This document shows, piece after piece, positions 2,522 to 18,932 of a stretch of 20,523 nt of DNA. A model generated the notes under the pieces. It was not told the origin of the DNA. It was given only the letters and a program-made list of their open reading frames with translations, and did not search any database. Made by a program: the position numbers and the translations under genes. Source of the stretch: a virus; the IMG/VR virus record IMGVR_UViG_3300042555_002712, positions 1 through 20,523 of that record; one strand, given 5' to 3'. Numbering within the stretch: position 1 is the first letter of the stretch; every line of letters starts with the position of its first letter.

Positions 2522-3655
2522 ATGTCATTTAATTTAATTCGCAACAGTCGAGTATTCTTTACTACGAACGTTAATTCAGGCACAGGTGTAGTGGCCTCAA
2601 CAGGCTTTACTCCAACTAACACACGCGAAATCCAAGTATTGGATGGTTTCAGCTTTAGCCAAAACACAACTCAAGAAACTGTTACACTAAACGAAGCCGG
2701 TGCTACACCTGTTCGTGGTCAGCGCAGTTTTAACACAGCTCTTGATCCAGCAGACTTTTCGTTTACAACTTATATGCGCCCTGCTGATGCTGGTGTTAAT
2801 ATTACTTGTGAAGAATCTGTGTTATGGAACGCAATGTTCTCTGATGATGCTATTGGCAGTGCTACAGCTGCTTGGGCTGACGGAATTCCCAAGGCCACTT
2901 GTACAGTTGAAAACAGTAATACTCACCAGCTACAAAAGTTTGGTATGATTATTACTATTGACACCACTACATTTATTATTGATAACTGTGTGTTAAACAC
3001 AGCCACAATTGATTTTGGACTAGACGCTATTGCATCAATTCAGTGGGCAGGTCAAGGCGGTGTGCTACGTCAAATCACAACACCAACGCTAAGCGGTACA
3101 GGTACTATTACTTTTGCAGGCAGCTTAACGGGTACTGCGCTGGGCAAGAACACAACAGCTCCTTATATTGCCAACAAATTGTCAACTGTTAGCTTGGATG
3201 CTGGCATTGGCGCAGGTGGTACAGCATACACACTAGCATTAACTGGTGGTAGCTTAACAATCTCTAACAACGTTACTTACTTAACGCCAGCTAACTTAGC
3301 TGAAGTTAACAAGCCAGTTACTTACTTTACTAGCACTCGTGCTATTAGTGGTACCCTAAACTGCTACTTACGTACAGGAAGTGGAAACAGTGCCGACCTA
3401 ATGTCGCAAATGTTAGCAACTTCTAGCAGCGACGTTAACCCTGCTTTCTATATTAAGATTGCAGTTGGTGGCAGTGCAAACGTAACTCACGTTGACTTTA
3501 CAATGCCTGCCGTTGTACTTTCTATTCCAGCTGTAAACGCTGAACAAGTTGTTTCAACAACTATCAACTTTACTGCACAAGGTTACACAGGTTCTGCATT
3601 TGACATTGGTCAATCAAACGAACTAACTATCGACTACGTTACAGCAAACGCTTAA
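2522..3655 (+). CDS. Major tail tube protein
   Basis: This 377-aa beta-rich protein is rich in Thr, Ser, Gly and Asn and has few Lys, typical of tail tube subunits, which stack as rings around the tape measure to form the DNA channel. It lies exactly in the lambda V slot, has a strong RBS (AAAGGA, 2508-2513) and its own leader hairpin, and is followed by a terminator, fitting a high-copy virion protein. Tube-type signatures occur twice: YMRP followed by LWNAMFSDDA (about residues 83-108) and a strand pair ending SIQWAGQGG (about 170-178), then CYLRTG followed by LMSQML (about 280-298) and a strand pair ending INFTAQGY (about 343-351). This suggests two tandem tube domains. It is longer than lambda gpV (246 aa). 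No C-terminal Ig-like domain is obvious. The assignment is confident; the duplication is an inference. Confidence 0.85.
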   Translation: MSFNLIRNSRVFFTTNVNSGTGVVASTGFTPTNTREIQVLDGFSFSQNTTQETVTLNEAGATPVRGQRSFNTALDPADFSFTTYMRPADAGVNITCEESVLWNAMFSDDAIGSATAAWADGIPKATCTVENSNTHQLQKFGMIITIDTTTFIIDNCVLNTATIDFGLDAIASIQWAGQGGVLRQITTPTLSGTGTITFAGSLTGTALGKNTTAPYIANKLSTVSLDAGIGAGGTAYTLALTGGSLTISNNVTYLTPANLAEVNKPVTYFTSTRAISGTLNCYLRTGSGNSADLMSQMLATSSSDVNPAFYIKIAVGGSANVTHVDFTMPAVVLSIPAVNAEQVVSTTINFTAQGYTGSAFDIGQSNELTIDYVTANA

Positions 3656-3668
3656 TCGGTCTTTTTAA

Positions 3669-3699
3669 AGGGTTGGCCTGATCCCCAACCCTCTTTTTT
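3669..3699 (+). terminator. Rho-independent terminator after tube gene
   Basis: An 8-bp perfect stem, AGGGTTGG (3669-3676) with CCAACCCT (3685-3692), has an 8-nt loop and is followed by C and six T (3694-3699). It lies 13 bases after the tube-protein stop. No promoter follows before the next gene, so it probably lowers rather than stops expression of the chaperones. Confidence 0.85.
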
Positions 3700-3716: not shown

Positions 3717-4136
3717 ATGTCAAATATCTCTTTAAAATCTCTGTTAGTTCCTTCAAAATCTGTAGAGGTCGAGTACCCTGGGTTTGCTGGGTTTAAAATT
3801 AGTGTGGCGTTCTTATCGCGTGAAACACTTTTAAACATTCGTAAAAAGTCAACTAAGACCAGCTTCAAAAACCGTCAGGCATCTGACGATTTCAACGAAG
3901 ACATGTTCTTACAGCTTTATGTTGAAAATGCTGTAAAAGGTTGGAGTGGGCTAAAACTAAGTTACTTGGAGCAGCTAGCACCGGTTGACTTAACAGGACA
4001 AAATCTTGAAGATGAGCTGGAGTATACTGCAGAAAACGCACTGTACTTGATGAAAAATTCCAGTAACTTTGACGCATTTATTAGTGAACAGGTATCAGAC
4101 TTGGGAAACTTTTCCACGAGCAGCAACAAACGCTAA
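3717..4136 (+). CDS. Tail assembly chaperone, short form (lambda gpG-like)
   Basis: This 139-aa protein is the zero-frame product of the chaperone pair. In lambda, gpG and its frameshift product gpGT bind the tape measure and recruit tube subunits, and are absent from the virion. Features are a beta-rich start (LLVPSKSVEVEYPGFAGFKI), the segment FNEDMFLQLYVENAVKGWSG (about residues 59-78) typical of phage chaperone and tube-adjacent proteins, and an acidic helical end. The order tube / chaperone / tape measure and the -1 slippery site at 4103-4109 make the call firm. No Shine-Dalgarno precedes ATG 3717 (CAACCTAATACAATAAT), an in-frame TAA at 3705-3707 blocks any upstream start, and a terminator lies just ahead. 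Low expression is therefore likely, which suits a non-structural chaperone. Confidence 0.85.
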   Translation: MSNISLKSLLVPSKSVEVEYPGFAGFKISVAFLSRETLLNIRKKSTKTSFKNRQASDDFNEDMFLQLYVENAVKGWSGLKLSYLEQLAPVDLTGQNLEDELEYTAENALYLMKNSSNFDAFISEQVSDLGNFSTSSNKR

Positions 4137-4495
4137 GCGAGCTGCTCACTAACTACATGCAAAACTCCAGTGTTGGTATGACCAAAGACCAATACTACGA
4201 GATGTGTGAAGCACTTGGTACTGAACCGCTTGAGCATGAAGTACCAGTGGAGTTAGAAGATTTTCCAATTGAAATGCAGCAAGCATTTGCAGTGTACCGA
4301 ATGTTACGAGATGAGTGGGATAGTATGAGTGGTCTTTACCTAGGCAAAAGCCTAATAGGTATCACAGAAGTATTGTCAGCCACAGAAATCGAAGCAGAAG
4401 ACACTAAGTTTATTACTATGTTAGTTAGGTTAATAGACTATGTTCGTGCGCAAGAAATAAACACCAAAAAAGCAAACCAAAAACCCGCGACTTAA
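3717..4495 (+). CDS. Frameshifted tail assembly chaperone (gpGT-like fusion)
   Basis: A -1 slip on G GGA AAC (4103-4109) joins the first 131 residues of the short chaperone to 128 residues read from CTT at 4109 to the TAA at 4493-4495, giving a 259-aa fusion. The -1 frame has no stop between the slip and an internal ATG at 4157, and that ATG has no Shine-Dalgarno, so the T part is most likely made only by frameshifting. The T part begins LFHEQQQTLSELLTNYMQNS and contains MTKDQYYEMCEALGTEP, an acidic stretch and FITMLVRLIDYVRAQE, typical of second tail chaperones that bind tube subunits in lambda. The gene ends inside a terminator stem. The frameshift is inferred from sequence only. Confidence 0.85.
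4103..4147 (+). promoter_or_regulatory. Programmed -1 ribosomal frameshift signal
   Basis: GGGAAAC at 4103-4109 lies in the zero frame as G GGA AAC, the canonical X XXY YYZ arrangement (lambda G uses GGGAAAG). Eight bases later GAGCAGC (4118-4124) pairs perfectly with GCTGCTC (4141-4147). The loop contains a smaller CGC/GCG hairpin with the zero-frame stop TAA (4134-4136) at its tip. Slippery site, spacer and stem together make a complete signal. Confidence 0.88.
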
Positions 4496-4512
4496 AACCT
4501 CGCGGGTTTTTT
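4480..4512 (+). terminator. Rho-independent terminator overlapping chaperone stop
   Basis: AAAACCCGCGA (4480-4490) pairs perfectly over 11 bp with TCGCGGGTTTT (4500-4510), with a 9-nt loop and a T-run at 4507-4512. The left arm encodes the last codons of the T chaperone and its TAA stop lies in the loop. It ends about 20 bases before the next promoter's -35 box. Confidence 0.9.
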
Positions 4513-4531
4513 GCGTTAAAAATTTTTTGGT

Positions 4532-4560
4532 TTGACACTGGAATGGTTACATGATATAAT
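4532..4560 (+). promoter_or_regulatory. Full-consensus sigma70 promoter for tape measure operon
   Basis: TTGACA (4532-4537), a 17-bp spacer and TATAAT (4555-4560) match the sigma70 consensus exactly. The spacer ends TGA, so an extended -10 (TGnTATAAT) is also present. An A/T tract (4518-4528) just upstream could act as an UP element. The expected start is near 4567, giving a leader of about 54 nt before the tape measure ATG. Confidence 0.9.
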
Positions 4561-4571
4561 GGTCTGTAGCA

Positions 4572-4588
4572 AAAATTGATGCAATTTT
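4572..4588 (+). other. Hairpin in tape measure mRNA leader
   Basis: AAAATTG (4572-4578) and CAATTTT (4582-4588) form a 7-bp perfect stem with a 3-nt loop within the first bases of the transcript expected from the promoter at 4532-4560. It is AT-rich and so weak. The RBS AAAGGAG follows about 20 bases later. A role as 5' mRNA stabiliser is possible. Confidence 0.4.
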
Positions 4589-4620
4589 AAAAGCCAATAG
4601 TTCTAAGTAAAGGAGCAATA

Positions 4621-7600
4621 ATGGCAACAGTAAAAATTAATTTAAGTCTTGAAGATACTAGTAATAGTGTTAAAGCACGTAAAAAAGACGTTGAAGATTT
4701 AAACAAAGAATTAACAAAAACAAAACAGCTTAGTACTGGAACTCAAAGTGGTAGTCGAGCTGTAAAAGCAAGCCTTACGCCTGGTATGGGCGGAGAAGGC
4801 ACAGAGTATGGTCGAGCTCGTGGCGGTATGGGTGCCACAGGTGCAGCAGGCCGTGACTTTGCTAACCAAGCGCAAGGCTTGGGCGGATTAGTTCGCCTAT
4901 ATGCAACATATGCTGCCAACGTATTTGCAGTAAGTGCTGCTTTTAATGCACTGTCTCAGGCAATGAATACCACTAACATGGTAAAAGGTTTGGATCAGCT
5001 TGGTGCAGCCAGTGGCGTAGCTTTAGGCAGCTTAGCTAAACGATTTGAGCAAGCTAGTGGCGGTGCTATTAGTTTGCGTGAGAGTATGGAAGCCACAGCC
5101 AAGGCTGTTTCAAGTGGGCTATCGCAAGCACAGTTCTTGAAACTTGGTGAAGTAGCTAAAAAAGCTTCTCAGGCACTTGGCGTAGGCATGAGTGATGCAG
5201 TTAGTCGTCTAACACGCGGTATTACTAAACTAGAACCTGAATTGCTGGACGAATTGGGTATTTTTACCAAAGTTGGTAAAGCCACAGAAGACTATGCTCG
5301 TAGTGTTGGTAAAAGCGCAAATGCACTAACAGACTTTGAACGTCGTCAAGCATTTGCAAATGCTGTGCTAGCTGAGGGAGCCCAAAAATTTGGTGAAATT
5401 AAGATTGATACCAATCCTTACGATAAGTTACTGGCTACATTAAAAAACGTAGCTCAAAGTATTGGTGAAATAATTAACGTGGCAATTGTTCCGCTTGTAG
5501 GCTTACTAGCTTCTAGCCCTGCAGCCCTTACACTTGGTATCGCTGCACTTGGTTCTATGATTGTCAAGCAAGCAATTCCTGCTATTGGCGAATATCGTAA
5601 AAGTCTAAAAGAGGCTGCGGAAGTGTCTAAGGGGTTAGCAGATGAAAAGTTAAAGCGCGCAGTGTCTGCTGCTGAATCTCGTCGTCAAGATATTGAAGCT
5701 AGGTCTCAAGCTTCTGCTGAAGCGGCCGCAACAAAGCTAGGCGATTTAGAAAATAAAATACGAGAACAAGCCAAGGGGCGGATTCGTAAAGATGTAGCAG
5801 CTATTATATCAACACCTAATATACTTGATATAAAAGATACTCAAGTAGATAAATTGGATAATATCAGTAAAAAGTTAAAAAACCAAGATAATATATATAA
5901 GCAATTAGCCAGTACAATACGAGAAGCAAAACAGGCAGCTTTAGATAATATTAAAGTACAGGACAAACTAGAAGCAGAACGTAAAACCGAACCCGGAAAA
6001 GCCTCTACCATAGGCGTGTTACGTGCTGATGCAGAGCGTCAGCGAAAAAGTGCTGCTGGTTCTGCTATTATTAGCAAAGCCGGAGATACTGCTGCTATTG
6101 ATGGATTCCGTGTGGCTTACGCGGAAATGATCGAACAGATTAAAACTGAAAAACTTGGTAAAGTACGCGGAGCTATAACCGGTATAGCTGGAGCAGCTAA
6201 TGCAGCCATTACTCGTATAGGCGGACTCGTCAGTGCTTTTAGTGGCTGGATAGCAGTAATTACAGCAGTTATTGGGGCTTACCAAATGTTAAGCGGATTA
6301 CTATCTAGTAATGCGGCAGAACAAGAAAAACTAAATGAAACATTAACTAACGGAACAGAAGCCGTCAAAGCTTTAAACTTAACTTACGATAAGTACCGTA
6401 CTAGTTTAAGCAGTGATGCTATTATTGCTACTGCAACTGCATTTACAAATCTAAGTGACAATATAGGATCTACAGTAAAAGCTCTTCAAGAAGCCGACGC
6501 TAAGTCGGGAGTGTTTGATCGATTTATTGATGGTATAAAATCTGTGTTTGGTCAAGACCTAAAATCAGATTTTGAGCGAGGCATTGCTTTTCAAGTATCG
6601 GAAGGTTTAAAAGGCATCACCGACCCTAAACTTAAGAAAACCGCAGAAAATAAACTAAAAGAACTACTTGGCATACAAACACTAACAGCCAAAGCTATTA
6701 GCGGAGCACTAGACGATATTGACAAGTCCGAGATTATTGCCAAAGGTGAACAAATTGCCAAAGTGTTCGATGCAGCAAGCCGTGCCGGACAAAAAACAGC
6801 AAATACCTTGAGTGCAATAAAAGACGGTTTTACTGCACTTGACCGATCATATACAACCTTATCTAATTCAATAACTCAAAAAGATCCGCTAACAGACTTT
6901 GGCAGAGAACTTGCAATGCAAGGTTTTAACTTAGCCGAAGCGTTTAAGGATCCTGTGGCAAGTGTAAGCGCACTTCGTGATATCTTAACTGATGTTAGTA
7001 AATTAAAGCTACTGTCTCCTGAATCACAACAGATTTTAATACAAAGCAAGGACGCATTTCTATCTTTGGCTAATTCTGCTGAATTTTATGAAAAATTAAT
7101 AGTTGAATCAGAAAAACGCGTAAAAGGTCTAGAAAAGCAACGCGATAGTAGACTTAATAAAGCCCCTATACAAAAACAGCTTGATCGTGAACAATCCGAC
7201 CTTGCCCGTTTCCGTGATAGATTATCAGATACTAAGTCAGGGCTACAGGTAATTTCCAAAGAGTTTGCACGTGCTAGTGAAGAATCAATCAAAAAAGGCT
7301 TTGAATTAGTAGAAGGAAGCTTTTCCAGAGCTCTAGCAGCCGGAGTTTTAAATAATCAAAAAGCTTTGCTGGATTACTTACCTAAAACAGAGGGTACGCT
7401 GTCTCTGGGTGTGTCAATAGAAAATCAAAAACTTGAGCTACAAAAACAAGAAATATTGGAAACTCAACGTCTAATTAAAGAAATGGAACTGTTGCCTATA
7501 CGCCTTGAAAAGGCATTGCTAAGTGCTGATATAGAAAAACTTCTTTTAACTGAAACTTCCGGACCAGTCAGACAAGCGGCTAGGGATAATCCAAGACTAA

Positions 7601-9249
7601 AAGAGCTAGAAAAACGTGAAAAAGTATTAACCAGTAAAAATATATCAAAAGGTATTAGCAGCGGTGAATTTGAAAAAACTCCAGAAACGTTAAAAGCTTT
7701 GCAAGATCAACAGGGTACTTTTGCAAAAATAGCAGCTATATCTAGTCAACAGCAGATGAACCTTGTTAAAACACAAGCAGATACAGTTGCTGCACAGTTT
7801 GCCAAAACAAAAAATGAAATAGATAATGAACTAAAGCAAGCTATACAAGATCGCGAAACTTACTTAAAAGGTGACGGGTTCCGCAGAGATACCTTAGAAG
7901 AGCAGCAAGACACTATTGCCGCATATACAGCCAACGAAGCAAGACTAAATAAGCAAATATCACTACTGGGCACCCAAGAACAAATAGCTGTTTTTACAAA
8001 AATACAAATAGAAGCTCAAGGCAAAGGGTATAAAGAAATAGCCAAACTAGCAGGCAGTGCTGTTGAAACAGCAAAAACTCAGCTGGGAATATCTTCTGGT
8101 CTTATTGATGCCTCGAACGAAACTAACAAGAATGAAACTGACAGAAAAAACAATCTTGATAGTCAATTAGAAATAATGAAACTTCAAAACATTGCGCTAG
8201 AACGTGATACAGCACTAACAAAAATTACCGGAGATACTGAGCTGGCTTTGTTAGATATACGTAAACAAGAATTACAGCTAGAGTACGAAAAGGGTATGAT
8301 TACCTTAGATAATTATAACCAACAGCTAAACTCTTTGGGCCAAATTGATCGTGCAAAACAGCGTGAAGCCAAAACAACTGCACTTGTGCAAAAATATACT
8401 GTAGATATGCTTGCGTATGCAAAAGAGTTTTCAAGTGCTACAAAAGCTCAATTACCCGAAATATTGGCAAGATACAATGCAACAAACACCGTATACCAAA
8501 AAGAGCTAGAGGGTATCAACAAAGTGTATACAGCAACAGAAGCACTTGCTGAACAGCAACGAGCATTACCACAACGCCAACAAGCATACGCGGAACTATT
8601 TACAAGTGCATTTAAATCAATGGAAGATGCAATTGTGGAGTTTACCCGTACAGGTAAACTAAGCTTTAGCTCTATGATTGAGAGTTTTATAGAAGGCTTA
8701 TTACGTTACGAACTTCAGCAACAACAAGCAATGTTATTTAAAGGGCTGGGTGGAGCTTCAGGTATAGTTGGAGCAGGTATGAACCTGCTAGGTCTTTCTA
8801 GTGGCGCTTATGGAAGTGGATATACTGCCGCGCAACTAGCAACATTACCAATGGCCAAAGGTGGAGCTTGGGACTACGGAGTTCAAGCATTTGCCAAAGG
8901 CGGTGCATTTACCAACCAAATAGTTGACTCACCCACACTGTTTAAATTTGCCAAAGGCACGGGTTTAATGGGCGAAGCCGGCCCAGAAGCCATTATGCCC
9001 CTAAAGCGTGACAGCAACGGCAACCTTGGAGTTAGTAACCCCGGTGGTGGTGGTAATGTTGAAGTGGTTGTCAACAACTATTCAACAGCACAAGCCGAAA
9101 CACGTGAAACAACCGACTCGCGCGGTAATCGTCGTATTGAAGTTGTGGTTGGCGACATGGTTGCACAAGAAGTGGCTAAAACTGGTTCCGCAACACAAAA
9201 TGCATTCTCTAGTACTTATGGTACTAGACCTGCCCTAGCAAGGAGATAA
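4621..9249 (+). CDS. Tail tape measure protein (lambda gpH-like)
   Basis: This 1542-aa protein sets tail length by stretching through the growing tube. Residues 1-150 include VRLYATYAANVFAVSAAFNAL and LDQLGAASGVALGSLA, typical tape measure N-terminal segments. Two long hydrophobic Ala/Gly/Ile stretches lie near residues 275-325 and 517-565. Long charged coiled coils fill most of residues 330-520 and 830-1320. At about 1327-1372 is the lambda-family C-terminal unit (FKSMEDAIVEFTRTGKLSFS). A Gly-rich tail follows with LMGEAGPEAIMPLKRDSNGN near 1449-1468, the signature shared with lambda gpH. RBS AAAGGAG lies 8-9 nt before the ATG. It has its own promoter and terminator-defined upstream boundary, so it is transcribed apart from its chaperones. 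Its 3' end carries the RBS of the next gene. Confidence 0.95.
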   Translation: MATVKINLSLEDTSNSVKARKKDVEDLNKELTKTKQLSTGTQSGSRAVKASLTPGMGGEGTEYGRARGGMGATGAAGRDFANQAQGLGGLVRLYATYAANVFAVSAAFNALSQAMNTTNMVKGLDQLGAASGVALGSLAKRFEQASGGAISLRESMEATAKAVSSGLSQAQFLKLGEVAKKASQALGVGMSDAVSRLTRGITKLEPELLDELGIFTKVGKATEDYARSVGKSANALTDFERRQAFANAVLAEGAQKFGEIKIDTNPYDKLLATLKNVAQSIGEIINVAIVPLVGLLASSPAALTLGIAALGSMIVKQAIPAIGEYRKSLKEAAEVSKGLADEKLKRAVSAAESRRQDIEARSQASAEAAATKLGDLENKIREQAKGRIRKDVAAIISTPNILDIKDTQVDKLDNISKKLKNQDNIYKQLASTIREAKQAALDNIKVQDKLEAERKTEPGKASTIGVLRADAERQRKSAAGSAIISKAGDTAAIDGFRVAYAEMIEQIKTEKLGKVRGAITGIAGAANAAITRIGGLVSAFSGWIAVITAVIGAYQMLSGLLSSNAAEQEKLNETLTNGTEAVKALNLTYDKYRTSLSSDAIIATATAFTNLSDNIGSTVKALQEADAKSGVFDRFIDGIKSVFGQDLKSDFERGIAFQVSEGLKGITDPKLKKTAENKLKELLGIQTLTAKAISGALDDIDKSEIIAKGEQIAKVFDAASRAGQKTANTLSAIKDGFTALDRSYTTLSNSITQKDPLTDFGRELAMQGFNLAEAFKDPVASVSALRDILTDVSKLKLLSPESQQILIQSKDAFLSLANSAEFYEKLIVESEKRVKGLEKQRDSRLNKAPIQKQLDREQSDLARFRDRLSDTKSGLQVISKEFARASEESIKKGFELVEGSFSRALAAGVLNNQKALLDYLPKTEGTLSLGVSIENQKLELQKQEILETQRLIKEMELLPIRLEKALLSADIEKLLLTETSGPVRQAARDNPRLKELEKREKVLTSKNISKGISSGEFEKTPETLKALQDQQGTFAKIAAISSQQQMNLVKTQADTVAAQFAKTKNEIDNELKQAIQDRETYLKGDGFRRDTLEEQQDTIAAYTANEARLNKQISLLGTQEQIAVFTKIQIEAQGKGYKEIAKLAGSAVETAKTQLGISSGLIDASNETNKNETDRKNNLDSQLEIMKLQNIALERDTALTKITGDTELALLDIRKQELQLEYEKGMITLDNYNQQLNSLGQIDRAKQREAKTTALVQKYTVDMLAYAKEFSSATKAQLPEILARYNATNTVYQKELEGINKVYTATEALAEQQRALPQRQQAYAELFTSAFKSMEDAIVEFTRTGKLSFSSMIESFIEGLLRYELQQQQAMLFKGLGGASGIVGAGMNLLGLSSGAYGSGYTAAQLATLPMAKGGAWDYGVQAFAKGGAFTNQIVDSPTLFKFAKGTGLMGEAGPEAIMPLKRDSNGNLGVSNPGGGGNVEVVVNNYSTAQAETRETTDSRGNRRIEVVVGDMVAQEVAKTGSATQNAFSSTYGTRPALARR

Positions 9250-9252
9250 AAT

Positions 9253-9621
9253 ATGGCAATTCCAAACTGGCCAACAGCAGGCAACTTTCCGCAAAGCCCC
9301 CAAAAGGGGTTTTCGGAAAGCATTGGTGTTAACGTAATACGAACTCAAACCGACATGGGTCCGGCAAAGCAACGCCGCCGAAGCAAGCGTCCAAGTACCA
9401 TGGACGTTAGCTTTATACTAACCACAGCTCAAACTCAAACACTAGAAACTTTTATCAACAATGACTTGCAGGGAGTAAACCGATTTAAGTTTACTCACCC
9501 ACGTCTTTATACTACTATCGATGTTCGCATTGTTCCACAAAGCGATGGCGAATTTTTTAAACTGCAGTACCTTGCACCAGGCTACTGGCAGACTTCCCTT
9601 AAACTAGAAGTGTTACCATGA
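9253..9621 (+). CDS. Minor tail protein / distal tail protein (lambda gpM-like)
   Basis: This 122-aa protein is close in size to lambda gpM (109 aa) and sits directly after the tape measure, as M follows H. Such proteins form the ring that joins the tube to the tip. Visible features are the N-terminal IPNWPTAGNFPQSPQKGFSE, a basic patch AKQRRRSKRPST (about residues 38-49), the strand MDVSFILTTAQTQTLETFI, and a C-terminal APGYWQTSLKLEVLP, matching the 'YWxVSLxLEV' ending common in this family. The RBS AAGGAG (9240-9245) lies in the last codons of the tape measure. The stop overlaps the next start (ATGA). Confidence 0.75.
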   Translation: MAIPNWPTAGNFPQSPQKGFSESIGVNVIRTQTDMGPAKQRRRSKRPSTMDVSFILTTAQTQTLETFINNDLQGVNRFKFTHPRLYTTIDVRIVPQSDGEFFKLQYLAPGYWQTSLKLEVLP

Positions 9622-10148
9622 GCAGAATAAGCACATTAAGCGCAGCGGCCGTTCGTGCAATGTTTTCGTCAGAAACGTCGGAAACATTAATAATGCTGCT
9701 TACTATTTACGATCCTGATACCAGTACTACCCCAGTATTTCGTTTCGCTGATAGTTATACTGGCAGATTAGCTAGCCTAACCACAGACGCAGAAATTGTA
9801 TATGGTGTACCAAGCCGTGGTCAAAATTATGTGTTCTTGCCAATGAACCTAAACTTGCCTGCTGAACAAGACACAGGGGTTGGTACTTGCTCACTTACCT
9901 TACAGTACGTAACACGCGAAGCAATTGAACTTATTCGCACAGAATTAACAAAACCTGTGCGAGTAGGTATTGAACTTGTATTGAGCGGTACGCCCAATAC
10001 TGTGGAAGCAAGTTTTCCTGGCTTTTATATTACATCAGCTACGTATAATGCGGATGCGATTACTTTTGAGTTAACAATGATTAACTTATCACGTGAACCA
10101 TTTCCGTGCTATAATTTTATTCCCAGCTACTTTCCAGGACTATTCTAA
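9618..10148 (+). CDS. DUF1833 tail protein (lambda gpL-like position)
   Basis: This 176-aa beta-rich protein has the hallmarks of DUF1833: a start like SETSETLIMLLTIYDP, a central LNLPAEQDTGVGTCSLTLQYV (about residues 75-94), and the ending NLSREPFPCYNFIPSYFPGLF. It occupies the slot of lambda gpL, a tail-tip protein, and is coupled upstream by ATGA and downstream by a TAATG junction to the K-I-J fusion. I see no Cys cluster like the iron-sulfur site of lambda gpL; only two Cys are present. A role as an adaptor between the distal ring and the tip is inferred from order. Confidence 0.78.
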   Translation: MSRISTLSAAAVRAMFSSETSETLIMLLTIYDPDTSTTPVFRFADSYTGRLASLTTDAEIVYGVPSRGQNYVFLPMNLNLPAEQDTGVGTCSLTLQYVTREAIELIRTELTKPVRVGIELVLSGTPNTVEASFPGFYITSATYNADAITFELTMINLSREPFPCYNFIPSYFPGLF

Positions 10149-13100
10149 TGGATTACAACAAGTACATAGGGTTACCCTACAAAGACAATGGCAGAGACAC
10201 AAGTGGCGTAGACTGCTGGGGCTTAGCCAGACTATTTTATCAGCAAGAACTTGGTATTGAATTACCAAGCTATACGGAGCTGTATGCTGGAGCACACGAC
10301 CCGCAAGTTTCACAAGCCCTTGACGCCTACAAAGATTCGTGGCAAGTTGCTGAGTATGGTGTGGCAGGTGACCTGTGCTTGTTTAATATTTATGGTGAAC
10401 CAGCACACGTGGGTGTGTACATTGGTGAGCGTAAGTTCCTGCACGCTCGCGAGGGCCGCGATAGTGTAGTAGAGTCATTGGACAGTGCGCAGTGGTCAAA
10501 GCGTTTTGCAGGATTTTACAAGTATACTGCAAAACCATCTGCTATTCAACTAACCGGAGTACCACATCCGCTGCAAACACAGGTCTTATACGACTGGACT
10601 GTGGCAGGTACCACCGTACAAGACTTAGCCAATTTTGTAAAACAAAAGTATAGTGTAAGTGAGCGACTGGCCAGCAAATTGGTTATTTTAATAGACGGAG
10701 TACCTATTGCACAGGACCAGTGGGATAGTACTGTGTTACTGGAAGGCCAGACAGTTGCCTACAAGTGCGTAGCCGCAGGTGGCAATACCACAAGATTGCT
10801 GCTAACATTAGCTGTTGTAGCAATAGCTACTTATGTTGCAGGCCCTGGTGGGGGTGCCAAAGCACTTAGCGCAGCAACAGGGTTTTCTACTGCAGTATCT
10901 ACAGCTCTAATAGTAACTAGCGTTAACATGGCCGGCATGGCATTAGTAAACGCTATTGCGCCTGTGCGTATGCCGGGTCAAGCACCTGACCCTGGCAGCG
11001 CAGCAGGCCTAAACTTGTTTACGGGTGCTAGCAATCAGGCAAGTCGTTTTGGCGCAATTCCCGTGGTGCTGGGAAAAATGCGCGTTACAGGCGTACTTGG
11101 TGCCACTCCTTATGTGGATACTCTAACTGACACAAGCTTGTTAAACTTGTTAATTGTGTGGGGCTACGGTCCACTAAAAGTAGACGATATTTGTGTGGGC
11201 ACAAACCCAATCAGCAACTACTACAACAAAAAAGATGATGCTGACCTAGAATTTGCACAAGATATTCCACTGCCTGTTACATTATACGGTAACGCAACCG
11301 ATCCAGGTAGCGCTGCAGAAATTGCATTCAACAAATTGTACGGCCGTGATGTTGAACAGCAGCAAGTTAATATTCAGCTTGTAAACAACTCTGAAGATGG
11401 TAATCCTTGGCAAGAAGTAGCTTTTGCACAAGACAATACCACAGCAGTTGACTTAGCTTTTACTTTTCCAGAAGGCATGCGTCAACTGGTAATCAGCGGA
11501 GATGCCGCAGGTGCTATACAGCAAGCCACAGCAGCAGTTGAAATTCAACTACGTAAGAAAAAATCTGATGGAACTTGGCCAGCCTGGGCTCCTAGACCAA
11601 GCTATGCTTTTGGTGACTATAGTGCACAAACACCCAACTCTGTGGCCTATAGTGACATATTACTTCCTATTCCTGATAGATTTAGTACTCAAGAAGGCAT
11701 CTACAAAACTTTAACTCAACGACACGTGTATGCACTAAGCGACACCGGTACAATAGTTAAGTTTAGTGGTGCGGTAGCCGATGACTATACTAGTATAAGC
11801 GCCGAACTATTAGCAGAATATAAATCTGGCAGCTATGCTGGATTAGCTGGCAATGATGCTGATCAAACAACTTATACCATAAATCCAGTATTACCCTTAA
11901 ACGGATATAAAAAAATATGTACTGTAATACAGCAAGGCGGTAGTTTATTTAGTATAGAAAACCACCTGTCTTCGTATACCGGTTACTACGGGCTTGAAGC
12001 TACCGCTACTCAACTAAATATATTTAATAGCTATAGTGGAGGAGACGAAGGAGGTAATTTTTATCTCGTAAATAACGGTATAAAAGTAGAAATTAAAAGT
12101 GGTGCAATATACGCACTAACTAGTAATCAACCTGTAGCAGGTCAGTCTGTTGTTGTGTTTAATCGCAGCAATCTTACAACTTATGGAGCAGTTGCAGCCA
12201 ACAGTGACAGAGCTTGGTCTAAATTCTTGCAAGAAAACGCAGTATGGTCACCAGGGTCTAGCCCTACATTTGATATGACTGTAAATGTAGAGTTTCCATA
12301 TACTGGATACTACCATGTTGAAGCCAGTGCAGACGATGAAGGCACTGTGTACGTAGACAACCGCCAAGTTGTTGGAATACCAATTCCTGGATTTGCAAGC
12401 ACCGTTAGTAACTTAGTGTATTTAGAGGCAGGTACTTATCCTGTTAGAGTTTTTGCAAAAAATAGTGGTGGTCCGGCCGGAATAGCTTGTACTATTACTT
12501 TTAATGAAAACGGTGGCCTAAATAATCTACCAACGCCAGACACTATTTTGGTATTTGGTACTCCTGGATTTTATCACAAACGCAAAGATGCTTTTAACTT
12601 TGTTTACAAGATCAAAAACTTGCCACAAGGATTTTACGAAGCACGAGTACGTCGTGTAAATGACGATGTAACAGAGCCCGAAAGTTCTCTGAGAAATTAT
12701 AATAAGGTTGCACTACTAAGTGCTACAGCCTATGGTAATGCAATTGACCCGATTACTAACCTGCCGCAGGGGCCAATTAATAAAATACCAAACACTAACT
12801 TAGCAAAAACAGCTATACGTATACAAAGTACCAGCAAAGCCAACGGTAGTATTGATGGTGTAAATGCCTTAGTACAAACCATATGCCCAGACTGGGATCA
12901 GTATATGGGGTGGACTCCCAAAGCTACAAGTAATCCTGCTAGTTTATTTGTTTATGTACTAACACATCCTGGCAATGCTTACCGCATTAAAGCACAGGAT
13001 GTTGAGTCTCAAATAGACTTACCAACAATACAAAATTGGCATGGGTACTGTAAAAATCGCAAGTTTGAGTTTAATAGCGTAATTACGCAAACTCAAAGCG

Positions 13101-14668
13101 TAATGGACGTATTACGAGATATTTGTGCAGCAGGTAAAGCTAGTCCAAGTTATGTTGATGGTAAGTGGACTGTTGTGGTTGACCAAGCTCGTCCATATGT
13201 TACACAGCATTTTACACCTCACAATAGTTGGGGCTTTGAATCTACCAAATTACTACCAAGGCTGCCGGACGCGTTCCGCGTTACTTTTGCTAACAGCGAC
13301 AAAGCCTATCAAGCAGATGAAATTTTAGTATTTAATTTTGGCAAAACCAAAGCCACAGCAGAAGTATTCGAAGAACTTAGTCTGCCTGGTGTAACCAACG
13401 CCAAGCAAGCAAAACACCTAGCCCGTTGGCACTTAGCACAAACAAAGTTACGTCCTGAAGTCTATACTCTTAACGTAGATTTTGAGTACTTGGTGTGTAA
13501 CCGCGGAGACCTAGTGCGTGTAGCTCATGATGTGCCTCTTTGGGGTACCGGCACAGGACGTATTGTAAGTGTTAGTGGAAGCACTATAACACTAAGTGAG
13601 CCAGTTTATCTAACTACTGGCACACAGTATCAGATACGTATTCGTACTAATTCACCATCAACTCTGCCTGGTTCAGAAAATAGTGAAACATATTTTCTAA
13701 ATCCAATCAGTGCTTCCGGAACATACACTACTCTTACAGCCAGCCAGGCTTTTGGCGATGCTGTGGAATCGGATAACCTGTATATGTTAGGTGAAATAGG
13801 AAAAGAATCTCAAGAACTTGTGGTACTATCCATAGAGCCCAGCGATAATACCAGCGCACGTTTAACACTAACAGACTACAGTCCAGAAATTTATACCATA
13901 AACATGAATTCGGACGACGATCTTCCAAGCTTTGATCCTAACATTAGTGGTGGCAGCAATCAATCTGTGCTGAATACTATCACACAGGCACCCGTTATTG
14001 TTGGAGCCAGCAGCGGCAGTAGCCTAGCCGAAGAAATTGCCACTGGAACGTTTCAAAACGTATTGTTAATAAGTTTTGGTAATGTACCAGCATTAAGCGA
14101 AGCAGCGCAAAAAATTCAAGTTCAAGTTGTGCTTGGCGACAGCGACTTTAGTTCTGGAAGCTTATTTGGTACTTACCTGCTGGATAAATCCACAGGCAGC
14201 TTAAGTTTAACAGGCCTAAAGACTCTTACTATTTACAAAATTCGTGCACGTTATATAAATGCAACAGGCTCTATAAGTGGACCTTGGAGTCCTATCTTCT
14301 ACACTACTTCCACAGGTAAGGTAGACAACGACTATATTGTGGACTCGCTGATAGTCGAGCTAGAAGATATATTTATTACTGCAATACCTGCTACCACACT
14401 GGATAAACCAGCAGACTTTAAAACTTTTGAGTACAGGTTGTACAAAGACACTGGCAACGAAGATTTCTGGGAACTTGATCCAGCCACTAATGGAATCCTT
14501 GTAGTACAAACAACCGATGTTGCAAGATTTAACTTGTTAAACGTACCACAACCAAGAATTTCTACTGCGGGTATAACATATCGAGTAGCATGCAGAGCCT
14601 TGGATAACAACAACAACTATAGCGCACAAAGTGCTTTGGGTACAATAGTTATTGCAACTATTAAATGA
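10148..14668 (+). CDS. Tail tip fusion: NlpC/P60 peptidase + gpI-like + gpJ-like
   Basis: This 1506-aa protein combines three lambda tip functions. Residues 1-125 are an NlpC/P60 domain with Cys23 in GVDCWG, His87 in PAHVGVYIG and His99 in FLHA, a likely Cys-His-His site for cutting cell-wall peptides (lambda gpK C-terminal part). Residues about 130-208 look like the beta-grasp part of lambda gpI and are followed by two hydrophobic stretches (about 210-270). From about 290 (SRFGAIPVVLGKMRV) the protein is J-like. A roughly 300-residue insertion (about 500-810) includes a PA14-like domain (about 685-795). J-type segments resume with LPQGFYEARVRRVNDD, then FEFNSVITQTQSVMDVLRDI (about 975) and NRGDLVRVAHDVPLWGTGTG (about 1118). 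FnIII-like repeats fill about 1270-1506. Its start overlaps the previous stop by one base (TAATG). Confidence 0.88.
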   Translation: MDYNKYIGLPYKDNGRDTSGVDCWGLARLFYQQELGIELPSYTELYAGAHDPQVSQALDAYKDSWQVAEYGVAGDLCLFNIYGEPAHVGVYIGERKFLHAREGRDSVVESLDSAQWSKRFAGFYKYTAKPSAIQLTGVPHPLQTQVLYDWTVAGTTVQDLANFVKQKYSVSERLASKLVILIDGVPIAQDQWDSTVLLEGQTVAYKCVAAGGNTTRLLLTLAVVAIATYVAGPGGGAKALSAATGFSTAVSTALIVTSVNMAGMALVNAIAPVRMPGQAPDPGSAAGLNLFTGASNQASRFGAIPVVLGKMRVTGVLGATPYVDTLTDTSLLNLLIVWGYGPLKVDDICVGTNPISNYYNKKDDADLEFAQDIPLPVTLYGNATDPGSAAEIAFNKLYGRDVEQQQVNIQLVNNSEDGNPWQEVAFAQDNTTAVDLAFTFPEGMRQLVISGDAAGAIQQATAAVEIQLRKKKSDGTWPAWAPRPSYAFGDYSAQTPNSVAYSDILLPIPDRFSTQEGIYKTLTQRHVYALSDTGTIVKFSGAVADDYTSISAELLAEYKSGSYAGLAGNDADQTTYTINPVLPLNGYKKICTVIQQGGSLFSIENHLSSYTGYYGLEATATQLNIFNSYSGGDEGGNFYLVNNGIKVEIKSGAIYALTSNQPVAGQSVVVFNRSNLTTYGAVAANSDRAWSKFLQENAVWSPGSSPTFDMTVNVEFPYTGYYHVEASADDEGTVYVDNRQVVGIPIPGFASTVSNLVYLEAGTYPVRVFAKNSGGPAGIACTITFNENGGLNNLPTPDTILVFGTPGFYHKRKDAFNFVYKIKNLPQGFYEARVRRVNDDVTEPESSLRNYNKVALLSATAYGNAIDPITNLPQGPINKIPNTNLAKTAIRIQSTSKANGSIDGVNALVQTICPDWDQYMGWTPKATSNPASLFVYVLTHPGNAYRIKAQDVESQIDLPTIQNWHGYCKNRKFEFNSVITQTQSVMDVLRDICAAGKASPSYVDGKWTVVVDQARPYVTQHFTPHNSWGFESTKLLPRLPDAFRVTFANSDKAYQADEILVFNFGKTKATAEVFEELSLPGVTNAKQAKHLARWHLAQTKLRPEVYTLNVDFEYLVCNRGDLVRVAHDVPLWGTGTGRIVSVSGSTITLSEPVYLTTGTQYQIRIRTNSPSTLPGSENSETYFLNPISASGTYTTLTASQAFGDAVESDNLYMLGEIGKESQELVVLSIEPSDNTSARLTLTDYSPEIYTINMNSDDDLPSFDPNISGGSNQSVLNTITQAPVIVGASSGSSLAEEIATGTFQNVLLISFGNVPALSEAAQKIQVQVVLGDSDFSSGSLFGTYLLDKSTGSLSLTGLKTLTIYKIRARYINATGSISGPWSPIFYTTSTGKVDNDYIVDSLIVELEDIFITAIPATTLDKPADFKTFEYRLYKDTGNEDFWELDPATNGILVVQTTDVARFNLLNVPQPRISTAGITYRVACRALDNNNNYSAQSALGTIVIATIK

Positions 14669-14678
14669 AAGAGATAAT

Positions 14679-17600
14679 ATGACAACATCAGCTGTGCTAT
14701 CGCCAGGGATTAAATCCCTGCACCTTAGCTTAGATACTCCTGTTGACCTCGTTACCGGAAAGGTCCGTCGTGACCTTTCTGGTATTCGTGTTTGGTATTC
14801 TACACAAAGCGGATTCAATCCCAATAATAGTGAAGGAACCCAAGCTTTCAACGGTCTCAGTTCAGATATCACTATCAGTAACTTATTGGAAAGTACTCAG
14901 TACTTTGTTAGATACGCATTTATTAGTGCTATAGACCCTACTGTTTACACAATCTCACCACAGCTATCGGCACTAACTTACGACGAAAACGTCAGCGTTT
15001 ACGGAAGTTTAACTAATCCAAGTAGTATAATTCAAACAAATAATGCTGGAACTAATGGTGATTATACTGTAGCAGGCGGCGTATTCAAAGTATACAAGTA
15101 CAGTACTGAAGTTACTGGTATGGGGGTTGAGTATGCGCTAGAAAGTGGCACTATAGTAGGTGGCCTGGCAGTAAGCATTAATCCAAATACTGGAGCATAC
15201 GCTGTAACTGGCTTAACTGATGACTATGGTTCAGTTATCTTGTCTGCTACATATGACGGCGTTACTATTCAAACCACACTGGTAGTAATTAAAGCTCGTG
15301 CTGGTGTGGACGGTACTAATGCGCAGCTATTAACAATTAATGCTGAAGGCACAGCCTTTGTGTTTAAAGATGCAGCAGCTAGCTCCAGCGACACTGCTAA
15401 ACTAACGCTAATTGCCAACCTTAAAAATGTAACTGGCACAGTAACCTGGACAGCAACCGCTTTTAATGTTAATAATGTAAGTTTAGGTCCTATTACTTTT
15501 ACCCAAACAGGTAACGCAATTGATATTAGTGCACAACAATTTAATCCACCCGCTTATGCTAACACAGTTGCTTATGTTACGGTAACTGCTAGTCGTGTAC
15601 TGCTATCAGACACAGTTACACTATATCGTATTAACAACGGCACAGATCAGATAATTCTTGAGCTTACCAACGAGTCGCATACTATTCCTGCTTACTATGA
15701 CGGAACTACCGTACCTGCTAGCTATATTGGTAGTGGTACAGAAATACGTGTAAAACAAGGCAATCAATATTTAACTGTTGATAACACAGTACCATACGCG
15801 CCAGGAACTTGGACAGTTACTGCTGCCAACGGTGTAAATATTACACCAGACACAACACCTGGTATTTTTAGCAGCTACATTAACTATGACACTCATAGTA
15901 ACATGACAGCTGATCGTGCATACATTGACTATACTGTAACAGGTACCAGCTTAACTGGTGCGCCGTTTTCAATCTCACGCCGTCAAAGTTTTGCAAAGTC
16001 AGTGGCAGGTGAGCCAGGTGCAACAGCTACCCTAGTTAGATTAACTACTACTGAGCTGGTATTTATTAAGTTCAAGGATGGTACTTATAGTTCAAATAGC
16101 GTTACCATATACGCTAACACTCAAAATATTCCTACACCAGTATTTGTATGGGACGACGGTATTAACCCACCAGTTACCAAAGACAGTACTGTAACAGCCA
16201 GTGCAAATCAGTTTGTATTTAACCGTCCAGCGGAGCTGGGTGTTTACACAATCACAGTAAGTGTAACGGACAAGACTAATACCGCACTGGGTACTGCTGT
16301 GGATTCTATGTCCATTGCTTTTATTGAAGAGGGCAGTGATGCCTACACGTTTCTTTTCAAAGATCCTGTAGCACAATTGAGTGCCAATAGTCTTGGAATC
16401 GTCGAAGGCGGCGTTACCAGTGTTGTAAACCACATTATTGGGGCACAAGGTATCGCACTGCTAGTGCCTGGTGTGGACATTGTATACAGCATAGACAGCA
16501 CAGAAAACTGTACAGCTACATTGGGTATCGTAACTGGAACGTGGAACCAGCAATTTACAGTTAGTGGAGCATTTTTTACAAATGCCAGCATTACATCAGC
16601 CAGCGTAACCATCAAGTGCCAAGTGCCTGGCGGTATATACTACTTGATGAAAACTTCCTATGCAAAAGTACGCAAAGGTGAAACCGGTGCTGCCGGAGCT
16701 GCTGGAGCCAATGCCGTTTTTGCAGACTTGTTAAGTGAAGCAGATGTTGTCACCACACTAACAGACGGTACTGGATACACACTGCCTAGTGGTAATGCCC
16801 TGCAATTATACAGCGGGGGTACACTGGTTACTACGGGCGTTACTTATGGTGGCGGTGCTACTAAGAATGGTCTAACACTTGCTATTAATGCAACTGGTGC
16901 GATCACACTAAGTGGTGCTGCTTGGACCAGCAATCAAGAAACTTTTAACGTAACAGCAACACTTGCTGGCACAGCTTATACTGCAATCTATACAATTGCA
17001 AAATCAAAAGCCGGTAGCGATGCCGTGTTTGTAGACTTGTTAAGTGAAGCAGAAGTGGTTAACAGCGCAGCTGATGGTACTGGATACACCCTACCAACTG
17101 GCAATAGCATGCGCCTATTCAAAGGCGGTGTGCAAGTAACTAGTGGAGTCACCTACAGTGGCGGTGCCTCACAGAATGGCTTAACACTGGCAATTAATAG
17201 CAGCACTGGAGCAATCACACTGAGTGGTGCAGCCTGGACTAGCACCAAAGAAACATTTACATTAACTGCTACTTACAGTGGTGTAGCGTATACCTATACC
17301 TACAAGATTACCAAAGCTCGTCAAGGAACCACAGGTACACCAGGTACACCTGGAACTAATGGAACCAACGGTACAAATGGAACTAATGGAACCAATGGCG
17401 TAAACGCAGTAAAGTCCACAAGCGGATATATCTACTATACTAGTTCAACTGGCAGTAATCCAGGTACCCCAAGTGCCAGTAGTTTTAACTTTACCAACGG
17501 TAGTTTTACAGGTCTAACTGCTGGCTGGAGCACTACCATTACCATGACAGGTAACGGAACTTACTGGGCAACACGTTATGTGGTAACAGAATCAGCCTTT

Positions 17601-18857
17601 GGCACTAACACCGGAACACCTAGCTTTGGTACGCCTTTTAATCACCAAAATTTTACTGGACTAGTAACTTTTACGGATCAGAGTAGCGCACTAAGTGGTT
17701 ATGCTACTCAAACTTATGCTACTAATCAAGCCGATGCTTATGGTAGTTATTATGGTAACTATTACGCTAATGGTGTTAAAAACGGACTAGCAACTCAAAA
17801 CTACACAGCTATTCATGGCGGTAATATTAGTACAGGTACGCTAACAGCAGATCGTATTCAAGCAGGTAGTTCAAATATTTCTAACAATACTGAATTTGCT
17901 TTTGGTACAGGAAGCGTTATTGCAGGTATTGCTACAGTTGGTTATTTTAAGAGCCAAAATTCAAGTGTTCTAGGGCTTGGGGTACTATCGAGCGGTAATA
18001 TAGCATTTGCTGCAAGTACTGTGTATGCAGGATCCGCTGGTGGTTTTGGTAACCGTAACGGTGTTGGTATTGGTATTGATGATATTAGTAGTGGTTATAA
18101 TAAAACTATGGCTAATTTTGCTGCTGCTACAATGGCTGGGTTTTTTCAAAAGCGTAGTCAAGGTGGTACTGCAAATATTATGTCTCAAGACGGCAATACC
18201 GAAGTATTTGTAAAAGTAGCTTTTAATGAGGGCGGAGGTAACGTTGCACTTCAAGCTTTAAATTCTGGAAATGGCTATTACGCCAATCTTGGAACACCCT
18301 CTCACGCTTTATATGCAAATGGACCAGTAAGCCCTTTTACCGGAGCACACGATGGGTTATTAAACAAATTAGTAACACCTACACCAGGTGACATTATGGT
18401 AGACCTTAATATTATTGCCAGCAAAGGTGTCTCAGATAGTATAGCAACTATTGAGCTATCTAGCAGAAGCAATCAACCGGCAGCAATTGGAATATACGTA
18501 GATACCTCTAGTCAAATACCCGTACCACTGCTTATTACAGTAGAAGAAGCCACAGAAGGAATAGACGGTCCTAGTACAACAACTGTACAAAAATTAAATC
18601 CAATATATGAATCACTGGTTGAAACGCATAACTATGTAATTATAAACTCACTTGGTGAAGGTCAGATCAACGTATGTGGTGAAGCCGGCACAATTGAGCT
18701 TGGCGACTTAATTGTTACTAGCTCTGTACCTGGCAAAGGTATGCGACAAAGCGACGACATTGTGCGATCAACTACAGTTGCCAAAGCTCGTGAAACTGTT
18801 ACGTTTGATTCACCCACCCAAGTCAAACAAATAGCTTGCATTTACCTGTGCGGCTAA
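14679..18857 (+). CDS. Central tail fibre with Ig-like modules and C-terminal head
   Basis: I chose ATG 14679 (1392 aa), 6 nt after GAAAGAG (14667-14673). An in-frame TTG at 14652 overlaps the end of the tip gene and has no visible RBS. Residues about 5-95 are FnIII-like, continuing the FnIII series of the tip protein. Residues about 100-880 are beta modules of 103-120 aa divided by short Gly linkers (GVDGTN, GEPGAT, GETGAAGAAGAN, AGSDA). The last two modules (679-781, 782-885) are near duplicates. A collagen-like (Gly-Thr-Asn/Pro) stretch lies at 883-906. After a less regular region comes GNISTGTLTADRIQAGS (about 1046), a motif of trimeric fibres. A C-terminal part with PFTGAHDGLL and GDLIVTSSVPGKGMRQSDDI (about 1220-1392) resembles fibre heads or maturation domains. 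A receptor-contacting role is an inference. The gene ends before a terminator. Confidence 0.82.
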   Translation: MTTSAVLSPGIKSLHLSLDTPVDLVTGKVRRDLSGIRVWYSTQSGFNPNNSEGTQAFNGLSSDITISNLLESTQYFVRYAFISAIDPTVYTISPQLSALTYDENVSVYGSLTNPSSIIQTNNAGTNGDYTVAGGVFKVYKYSTEVTGMGVEYALESGTIVGGLAVSINPNTGAYAVTGLTDDYGSVILSATYDGVTIQTTLVVIKARAGVDGTNAQLLTINAEGTAFVFKDAAASSSDTAKLTLIANLKNVTGTVTWTATAFNVNNVSLGPITFTQTGNAIDISAQQFNPPAYANTVAYVTVTASRVLLSDTVTLYRINNGTDQIILELTNESHTIPAYYDGTTVPASYIGSGTEIRVKQGNQYLTVDNTVPYAPGTWTVTAANGVNITPDTTPGIFSSYINYDTHSNMTADRAYIDYTVTGTSLTGAPFSISRRQSFAKSVAGEPGATATLVRLTTTELVFIKFKDGTYSSNSVTIYANTQNIPTPVFVWDDGINPPVTKDSTVTASANQFVFNRPAELGVYTITVSVTDKTNTALGTAVDSMSIAFIEEGSDAYTFLFKDPVAQLSANSLGIVEGGVTSVVNHIIGAQGIALLVPGVDIVYSIDSTENCTATLGIVTGTWNQQFTVSGAFFTNASITSASVTIKCQVPGGIYYLMKTSYAKVRKGETGAAGAAGANAVFADLLSEADVVTTLTDGTGYTLPSGNALQLYSGGTLVTTGVTYGGGATKNGLTLAINATGAITLSGAAWTSNQETFNVTATLAGTAYTAIYTIAKSKAGSDAVFVDLLSEAEVVNSAADGTGYTLPTGNSMRLFKGGVQVTSGVTYSGGASQNGLTLAINSSTGAITLSGAAWTSTKETFTLTATYSGVAYTYTYKITKARQGTTGTPGTPGTNGTNGTNGTNGTNGVNAVKSTSGYIYYTSSTGSNPGTPSASSFNFTNGSFTGLTAGWSTTITMTGNGTYWATRYVVTESAFGTNTGTPSFGTPFNHQNFTGLVTFTDQSSALSGYATQTYATNQADAYGSYYGNYYANGVKNGLATQNYTAIHGGNISTGTLTADRIQAGSSNISNNTEFAFGTGSVIAGIATVGYFKSQNSSVLGLGVLSSGNIAFAASTVYAGSAGGFGNRNGVGIGIDDISSGYNKTMANFAAATMAGFFQKRSQGGTANIMSQDGNTEVFVKVAFNEGGGNVALQALNSGNGYYANLGTPSHALYANGPVSPFTGAHDGLLNKLVTPTPGDIMVDLNIIASKGVSDSIATIELSSRSNQPAAIGIYVDTSSQIPVPLLITVEEATEGIDGPSTTTVQKLNPIYESLVETHNYVIINSLGEGQINVCGEAGTIELGDLIVTSSVPGKGMRQSDDIVRSTTVAKARETVTFDSPTQVKQIACIYLCG
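16713..17333 (+). repeat. Tandem 309/312-nt duplication in fibre gene
   Basis: The unit starting at 16713 is repeated from 17022, a period of 309 nt (103 aa). The second copy is one codon longer (INSSTGAIT against INATGAIT). Both carry DLLSEA, DGTGYTLP, GVTY(G/S)GGA, NGLTLAIN and TGAITLSGAAWTS. Many codons are identical, including GACTTGTTAAGTGAAGCAGA in both. Confidence 0.9.
17325..17396 (+). repeat. Collagen-like Gly-X-Y repeat, 9-nt periodicity
   Basis: Eight consecutive Gly-X-Y triplets (GTT, GTP, GTP and five GTN) are encoded by 9-nt units such as GGAACTAAT. Synonymous changes (ACT/ACC/ACA, AAT/AAC, GGA/GGT) break the DNA repeat. It forms a short trimeric linker between the beta modules and the distal fibre. 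Slippage here could vary fibre length. Confidence 0.85.
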
Positions 18858-18867
18858 CACCAAACTT

Positions 18868-18900
18868 AAAAATACCTGTCCAATGGGCAGGTATTTTTTT
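18868..18900 (+). terminator. Rho-independent terminator after fibre gene
   Basis: AAAAATACCTGTCC (18868-18881) pairs with GGGCAGGTATTTTT (18885-18898) over 14 bp with one G-T wobble and an AAT loop, and is followed by further T to 18900. The A and T arms make it partly bidirectional in form. It begins 10 bases after the fibre stop and ends 3 bases before the next -35 box. Confidence 0.92.
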
Positions 18901-18903
18901 GTG

Positions 18904-18932
18904 TTGACAGTTATATGCCTCTGTGCTATAAT
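18904..18932 (+). promoter_or_regulatory. Full-consensus sigma70 promoter for right-end operon
   Basis: TTGACA (18904-18909), a 17-bp spacer and TATAAT (18927-18932) are exact consensus. The bases TGC before the -10 complete an extended -10. The T-tract of the preceding terminator abuts the -35 box and could act as an UP element. The start is expected near 18939. Confidence 0.92.

Follow-up and report, generated by a model that had tools for sequence, protein, structure and literature searches.

The chaperone/tape-measure junction of this phage raises the question of what a full-consensus sigma70 promoter does within a late tail gene cluster, directly behind a terminator, and how its output would be timed. 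For T5-type phages, the reason for the early silence of strong sigma70 late promoters is stated to be unknown (PMC7472727). We consider it likely that the junction marks a boundary between late genes in a T5-related phage, at which a terminator, probably a conditional one, ends or throttles the tail-chaperone transcript and a sigma70 promoter restarts transcription for the tape-measure and tip genes.

Origin and gene order of the window

The window (i.e. the whole 20.5-kb virus record analysed, 20,523 nt) encodes a tail tube, a tail terminator, chaperones and a tape measure that match tail families in profile searches. The tail tube and tail terminator proteins matched ∼900 phage records by tblastn, chiefly T5-like and all at identities below 60%, whereas a related 104-kb contig, G001, encodes a tail tube protein 97% identical to that of the window. 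G001 also carries T5-type homologues (∼30–48% identity) of the terminase, portal, capsid, polymerase, ligase, D5, D10 and D15, among others. Structural and replication genes homologous to those of Demerecviridae are thus found via G001, which places the window's phage among the T5-related phages; the window is a fragment of such a phage from freshwater. The first-step-transfer genes A1/A2 gave no match in four related contigs of 100–104 kb, which may be incomplete, and no DNA-level similarity to cultured phages was found. As no relative was found in the bacterial genomes searched for a clue to the host, the sigma70 preferences of the host are only assumed. An Rfam search returned nothing at the gathering threshold.

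All features of the window described below lie on the + strand. The major tail protein gene (2522–3655; T5 pb6/N4 family, PHROG 3575, E 9e-56, 902 phage records by tblastn, chiefly T5-like) is followed by a terminator-like hairpin at 3669–3692 (−12.6 kcal/mol, z −3.1) that has no promoter behind it and is conserved in G001 and in two further relatives, G003 and G005. The predicted tail assembly chaperones 1 (3717–4136; PHROG 313, E 4e-17) and 2 (4157–4495; PHROG 3914, E 3e-11) come next, followed by the junction itself. Beyond it lie the gene of the putative tape measure protein (4621–9249, 1542 aa; PHROG 3779/1716, E ∼1e-43), preceded by a ribosome-binding site AAGGAG at 4610–4615, and four tail-tip genes (9253–18857; 122, 176, 1506 and 1401 aa). 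The 3-nt gap after the tape-measure gene holds neither terminator nor promoter, and the tip genes would belong to the same presumed unit. The block is closed by a second terminator hairpin of 14 bp (18868–18898; −19.3 kcal/mol, z −5.8) and a second full-consensus extended −10 promoter found by consensus scan (18904–18932), and this second terminator–promoter unit recurs in G001, G003, G005 and G006.

A terminator followed by a full-consensus promoter

The junction opens with a G+C-rich hairpin at 4479–4511, the arms of which (AAAAACCCGCGA/TCGCGGGTTTTT) pair over 12 bp around a 9-nt loop (MFE −16.9 kcal/mol, z = −4.3 versus shuffles), and which runs into a T-run at 4507–4512, as expected of an intrinsic terminator (4479–4512). 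The consensus terminator scanner, set to a loop limit of 8, missed this hairpin only because its loop is 9 nt long. The first-pass annotation had described an 11-bp terminator; folding and the T-run bear out the hairpin, and the stem counts 12 bp. The −35 box starts 20 nt downstream of the hairpin end, and the AAAAATTTTTTGGT stretch in between is UP-like in position and composition; the A/T tract AAAAATTTTTT and the GGT ahead of the −35 box (4518–4531) fall within conserved columns −13 to −2 of 25 non-redundant junctions. The promoter that follows (4532–4560) was identified exactly by that annotation as TTGACA-N17-TATAAT with TGn, some 20 bases past the terminator. It consists of TTGACA at 4532–4537, TG at 4552–4553, one base ahead of TATAAT at 4555–4560, and a spacer of 17 nt, and thus agrees with the sigma70 extended −10 consensus (boxes 16–18 nt apart) at 12/12 positions, with a predicted start at ∼4567.

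A functionless match in AT-rich phage DNA would draw on the frequency of weak promoter-like sites, which is about the same in the window (54) as in shuffles (43 ± 7). The full pattern TTGACA-N14-TGn-TATAAT, however, is expected by chance in only ∼0.0002 copies on the + strand, and the window contains two (4532 and 18904); none of 200 shuffles contained even TTGACA-N17-TATAAT, and the reversed pattern gave no match in the window. As a site of this kind is moreover retained in 61/61 related junctions, the chance reading is refuted by conservation and we give it practically no weight. The locus is most likely a working sigma70 promoter that opens the tape-measure/tip unit, and from its sequence and conservation we infer activity, strength, late timing and use by the host polymerase. 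A full match to the consensus need not mean strong output (PMC10911233).

Conservation of the junction

Sixty-one related loci reach the chaperone/tape-measure junction, and every one of them carries the promoter in the same place, in support of the earlier proposal that the tape-measure and tip genes have a host-type promoter of their own. The promoter scores 12/12 in 57 of the 61 loci and 11/12 in the other four, in which either the −35 box reads TTGACT (L054, L064) or the −10 box reads TATACT (L081, L082). Among 25 non-redundant copies (under 80% similarity across 99 nt), 25/25 have a spacer of 17 nt together with TGn, TATAAT and TTGAC, whereas most spacer positions are near background. The elements are therefore invariant while most of the spacer drifts, which argues that the promoter is under selection and not merely inherited. 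The hairpin is present in 36/36 distinct upstream sequences, with stems that are altered yet still paired; its distance to the −35 box is mostly 20–26 nt across the 36 distinct junctions and shrinks to 10 or 16 nt in the three shortest cases. Terminator and promoter are thus conserved jointly, and drift around them is evident. Also conserved are the A/T tract, the GG ahead of the −35 box and spacer positions 8–9. These last form a mid-spacer G/C pair (4545–4546 in the window) that is found in 24/25 and 25/25 copies, the spacers being otherwise AT-rich.

Beyond the sigma70 elements, no operator or palindrome is conserved in the junction alignments (25 non-redundant, 36 distinct). The first-pass annotation, which expected so strong a promoter to be active upon entry of the DNA if nothing blocked it, had suggested a search for repressor sites conserved near the promoter; the alignment shows no conserved palindrome there, and a repressor site is rejected for now. 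The presence of nothing but sigma70 elements, the A/T tract and the mid-spacer G/C pair favours a constitutive promoter, which would fire from the moment the DNA has entered the cell and free sigma70 polymerase is available; the promoter itself would exert no temporal control, and the copy number after replication would mimic lateness. Against such a scheme, the T5 late promoters PJ5 and PG25 are of sigma70 type, yet by primer extension their transcripts appear only from ∼30 min (PMC7472727), and a homologue of D5, which the T5 annotation describes as needed for late transcription, is found in 4/4 near-complete relatives (PHROG 323, ‘transcriptional regulator, D5-like’). We regard constitutive firing as a possibility to be taken seriously, if hardly a favoured one.

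Most copies in the clade retain all elements at consensus, which is also compatible with a promoter trap, in which the full consensus binds polymerase early and escape occurs only after a late phage factor has weakened the hold. According to reviewed data, escape can limit promoters of exact consensus, and output in vivo was highest for promoters in which one box departs from consensus (PMC10911233). Escape is, however, not limiting at high NTP (PMC10911233), and we hold the trap to be improbable.

The chaperone stop codon lies within the hairpin

The stop codon of the second chaperone (4493–4495) is situated in the loop of the terminator hairpin. This overlap holds for 36/36 distinct junctions: the stop codon lies in the loop or straddles it in 30/36 and lies in the left arm in 6/36, two of these at the first base of the arm. 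The other late terminators found in the four near-complete relatives, by comparison, begin 9–25 nt past their stop codons. In Escherichia coli, shortening the distance between a stop codon and a downstream terminator from 28 to 5 bp reduces termination from ∼90% to <10%, and termination is regained once translation is removed (PMC4824070). The conserved position of the stop codon thus suggests a ribosome-sensitive terminator, although the overlap could instead stem from genome compaction.

The preferred reading of the boundary can now be set out in steps. The intrinsic terminator would end or throttle the transcript of the major tail protein and the tail chaperones, and host sigma70 polymerase would restart 20 nt downstream, at the full-consensus extended −10 promoter with its UP-like A/T tract. 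The restarted transcript would cover the tape-measure and tail-tip genes, up to the unit at 18868–18932. The terminator is probably conditional, as a ribosome finishing the second chaperone would sit on the hairpin, so that well-translated messages would be read through and lagging ones would stop. The first-pass annotation held that the tape-measure and tip genes are decoupled from the chaperones. This is supported in part; the decoupling itself is uncertain, because a translating ribosome at the in-hairpin stop codon should suppress termination, and judged from the stop-codon position and the E. coli data it probably applies only where the ribosome falls behind. Coupled translation would make read-through likely, and the terminator may therefore matter little in vivo. 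If the conserved overlap does act in this manner, the ribosome finishing the chaperone decides whether transcription continues into the tape-measure gene.

Early- and late-region promoters and candidate regulators

We collected promoters from G001, G003, G005 and G006 that are intergenic, have an exact −10 box, at most two mismatches in the −35 box and spacers of 17 or 18 nt, with early and late labels assigned from gene content (the early-type region is that on the opposite strand with replication and tRNA genes). Promoters of the late region (+ strand) carry TTGACA in 10/17 cases and TGn in 12/17, whereas those of the opposite-strand early-type region do so in 4/65 and 18/65, respectively (Fisher p = 6e-6 for TTGACA and 0.002 for TGn, values that overstate independence because the four genomes are related). 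The common early-type −35 boxes are TTGATT, TTGAAC, TTGTCA and TTGAAA, and early-type discriminators are often ATATACTTA- or ATAGTCT-like. The annotated promoters of T5 follow the same trend, in that the early ones mostly have TTGCTT/TTGCTA and the late PG25 and PJ5 have TTGATA and TTGACA, respectively; PK28b, which is early yet has TTGACA, is an exception.

In T5, early and late genes both have sigma70 promoters, and the early ones share a discriminator motif, the contact to which is weakened by gpT5.026 (PMC7472727). Such findings would suit a modification of the polymerase that separates the classes: early promoters combine a poor −35 box with an A/T-rich discriminator, late ones a consensus −35 box with TGn, and either a host polymerase changed by the phage or an activator acting close to the −35 box, such as D5, would switch the preference to consensus −35 promoters. 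The contrast in TTGACA is a point in favour, tempered by the kinship of the four genomes, which inflates the p-value, by class labels that derive from gene content and by the T5 exceptions. No T5.026 homologue was found in the four near-complete relatives. The model of a D5 relative, which is of moderate confidence (pLDDT 78, pTM 0.37), contains four helix-turn-helix-like modules, one of which gives a match to Pfam sigma region 4 that is sub-threshold (25.0 versus a cut-off of 25.7 bits). The fold search with D5 gave no sigma-like or other informative match; with the profile match below its cut-off, we do not claim D5 as a sigma-region-4 protein, and its homologue is a candidate regulator only. 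Taken together, we see polymerase modification as conceivable and somewhat doubtful.

The −35 contrast may also bear on the early/late switch of T5. More speculatively, and in our estimate rather unlikely, the −35 box would be the principal cue for the switch in T5-related phages: an exact −10 box paired with a degenerate −35 box would mark early promoters and a consensus −35 box (here with TGn) late ones, the two being discriminated by a host polymerase altered by the phage or by a D5-type factor. This clade offers many diverged copies of one late promoter together with dozens of early-region promoters from the same genomes, and the discriminating features (the −35 box, TGn, the mid-spacer G/C pair and the discriminator) can therefore be named and tested singly.

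Other candidates for a phage-borne transcription apparatus were considered. No match to sigma region 2 or 4 was found in seven related contigs, in which the controls were detected; a phage-encoded sigma was rejected, which fits the use of host sigma70 polymerase. A single-subunit polymerase gave no match in the related contigs either, an absence that is weak because that search had no detected control.

A third class of promoters, ∼seven per genome, was observed with a spacer of 18 nt and GGCGC directly downstream of the −10 box; these full-consensus promoters have a CACGGGCC..AATTAT..TGG spacer and share TTTGGCGC just after the −10 box. These cluster beside the terminase end of the genome (12193–19768, + strand, of L094 in G001; also in G003, G005 and G006). 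Weak similarity to D5 (phmmer E ∼1e-4) is seen in small proteins encoded on the opposite strand in or beside the cluster (L094:14015-14602:-, L094:15503-15835:- and L095:263-586:-).

Comparison with lambda, T5 and other phages

In lambda, the late genes are served by one late promoter together with Q antitermination. The order of tail genes in the lambda late operon is similar to that of the window; unlike in lambda, the late cluster here and in T5 is split by terminator–promoter units, which in the window are predicted from sequence at 4479–4560 and 18868–18932, so that a single uninterrupted late transcript of the lambda type does not describe it. The comparison with lambda made in the first-pass annotation is thus misleading. 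Lambda is the wrong yardstick because the phage is T5-related and T5 itself has a late terminator with a strong sigma70 promoter, its tail cluster being already annotated with PG25 behind a terminator. PMC7472727 discusses this arrangement of strong sigma70 promoters downstream of terminators among the late tail genes of T5.

In the late tail cluster of T5 (AY543070), a terminator (92087–92113) directly precedes PG25, a promoter with an A/T tract upstream, and the pair spans 92013–92113 on the minus strand. The window likewise has, among late tail genes, a terminator with a predicted strong sigma70 promoter directly behind it. The two differ in position: the PG25 unit separates the tape-measure gene (pb2), which it follows, from T5.139/pb3 and the distal tail genes, whereas the unit of the window precedes the tape-measure gene, a junction at which T5 has a bare terminator. 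They differ also in detail, as the −35 box of PG25 is TTGATA without TGn and that of the window is TTGACA with TGn, the stop codon here lying inside the hairpin.

Cultured T5-like phages (L117, which is T5, and L122, L124, L125, L126, L127 and L128) share a TCCTCCA..GGGCGTTCCACGA-like stretch just ahead of the junction hairpin. It is possibly a conserved RNA element; the T5 copy had no Rfam match at the gathering threshold.

Seven cultured Demerecviridae (VCPH, JSF10, DU_PP_V, Kamaji, pVp-1, PSTCR5 and D239) resemble the window in having a tail-cluster terminator with a sigma70-like promoter (9/12 to 12/12, the latter in PSTCR5), and differ in that the unit follows the tape-measure gene in 7/7. 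Upstream of their tape-measure gene, or of the gene preceding it, no more than a terminator-like hairpin was found, and no promoter within two mismatches of the consensus. Klebsiella phage K7_rec12, compared up to the chaperone junction, has a hairpin alone there. Curvibacter phage P26059A shares the gene order, which runs from the tail tube through a pair of small genes to the tape measure and on through another pair of small genes, of comparable size, to a large tip gene; its best promoter (11/12, with TGn, behind a terminator) precedes the first chaperone, whereas its chaperone/tape-measure junction has a hairpin only. Comparison of P26059A, the cultured T5-like phages and the present clade therefore places such a unit at three different sites in related tail clusters. 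Judged from these sequences, the unit described here is known in kind and different in place, its novelty lying in the position of a terminator–promoter unit and not in the principle.
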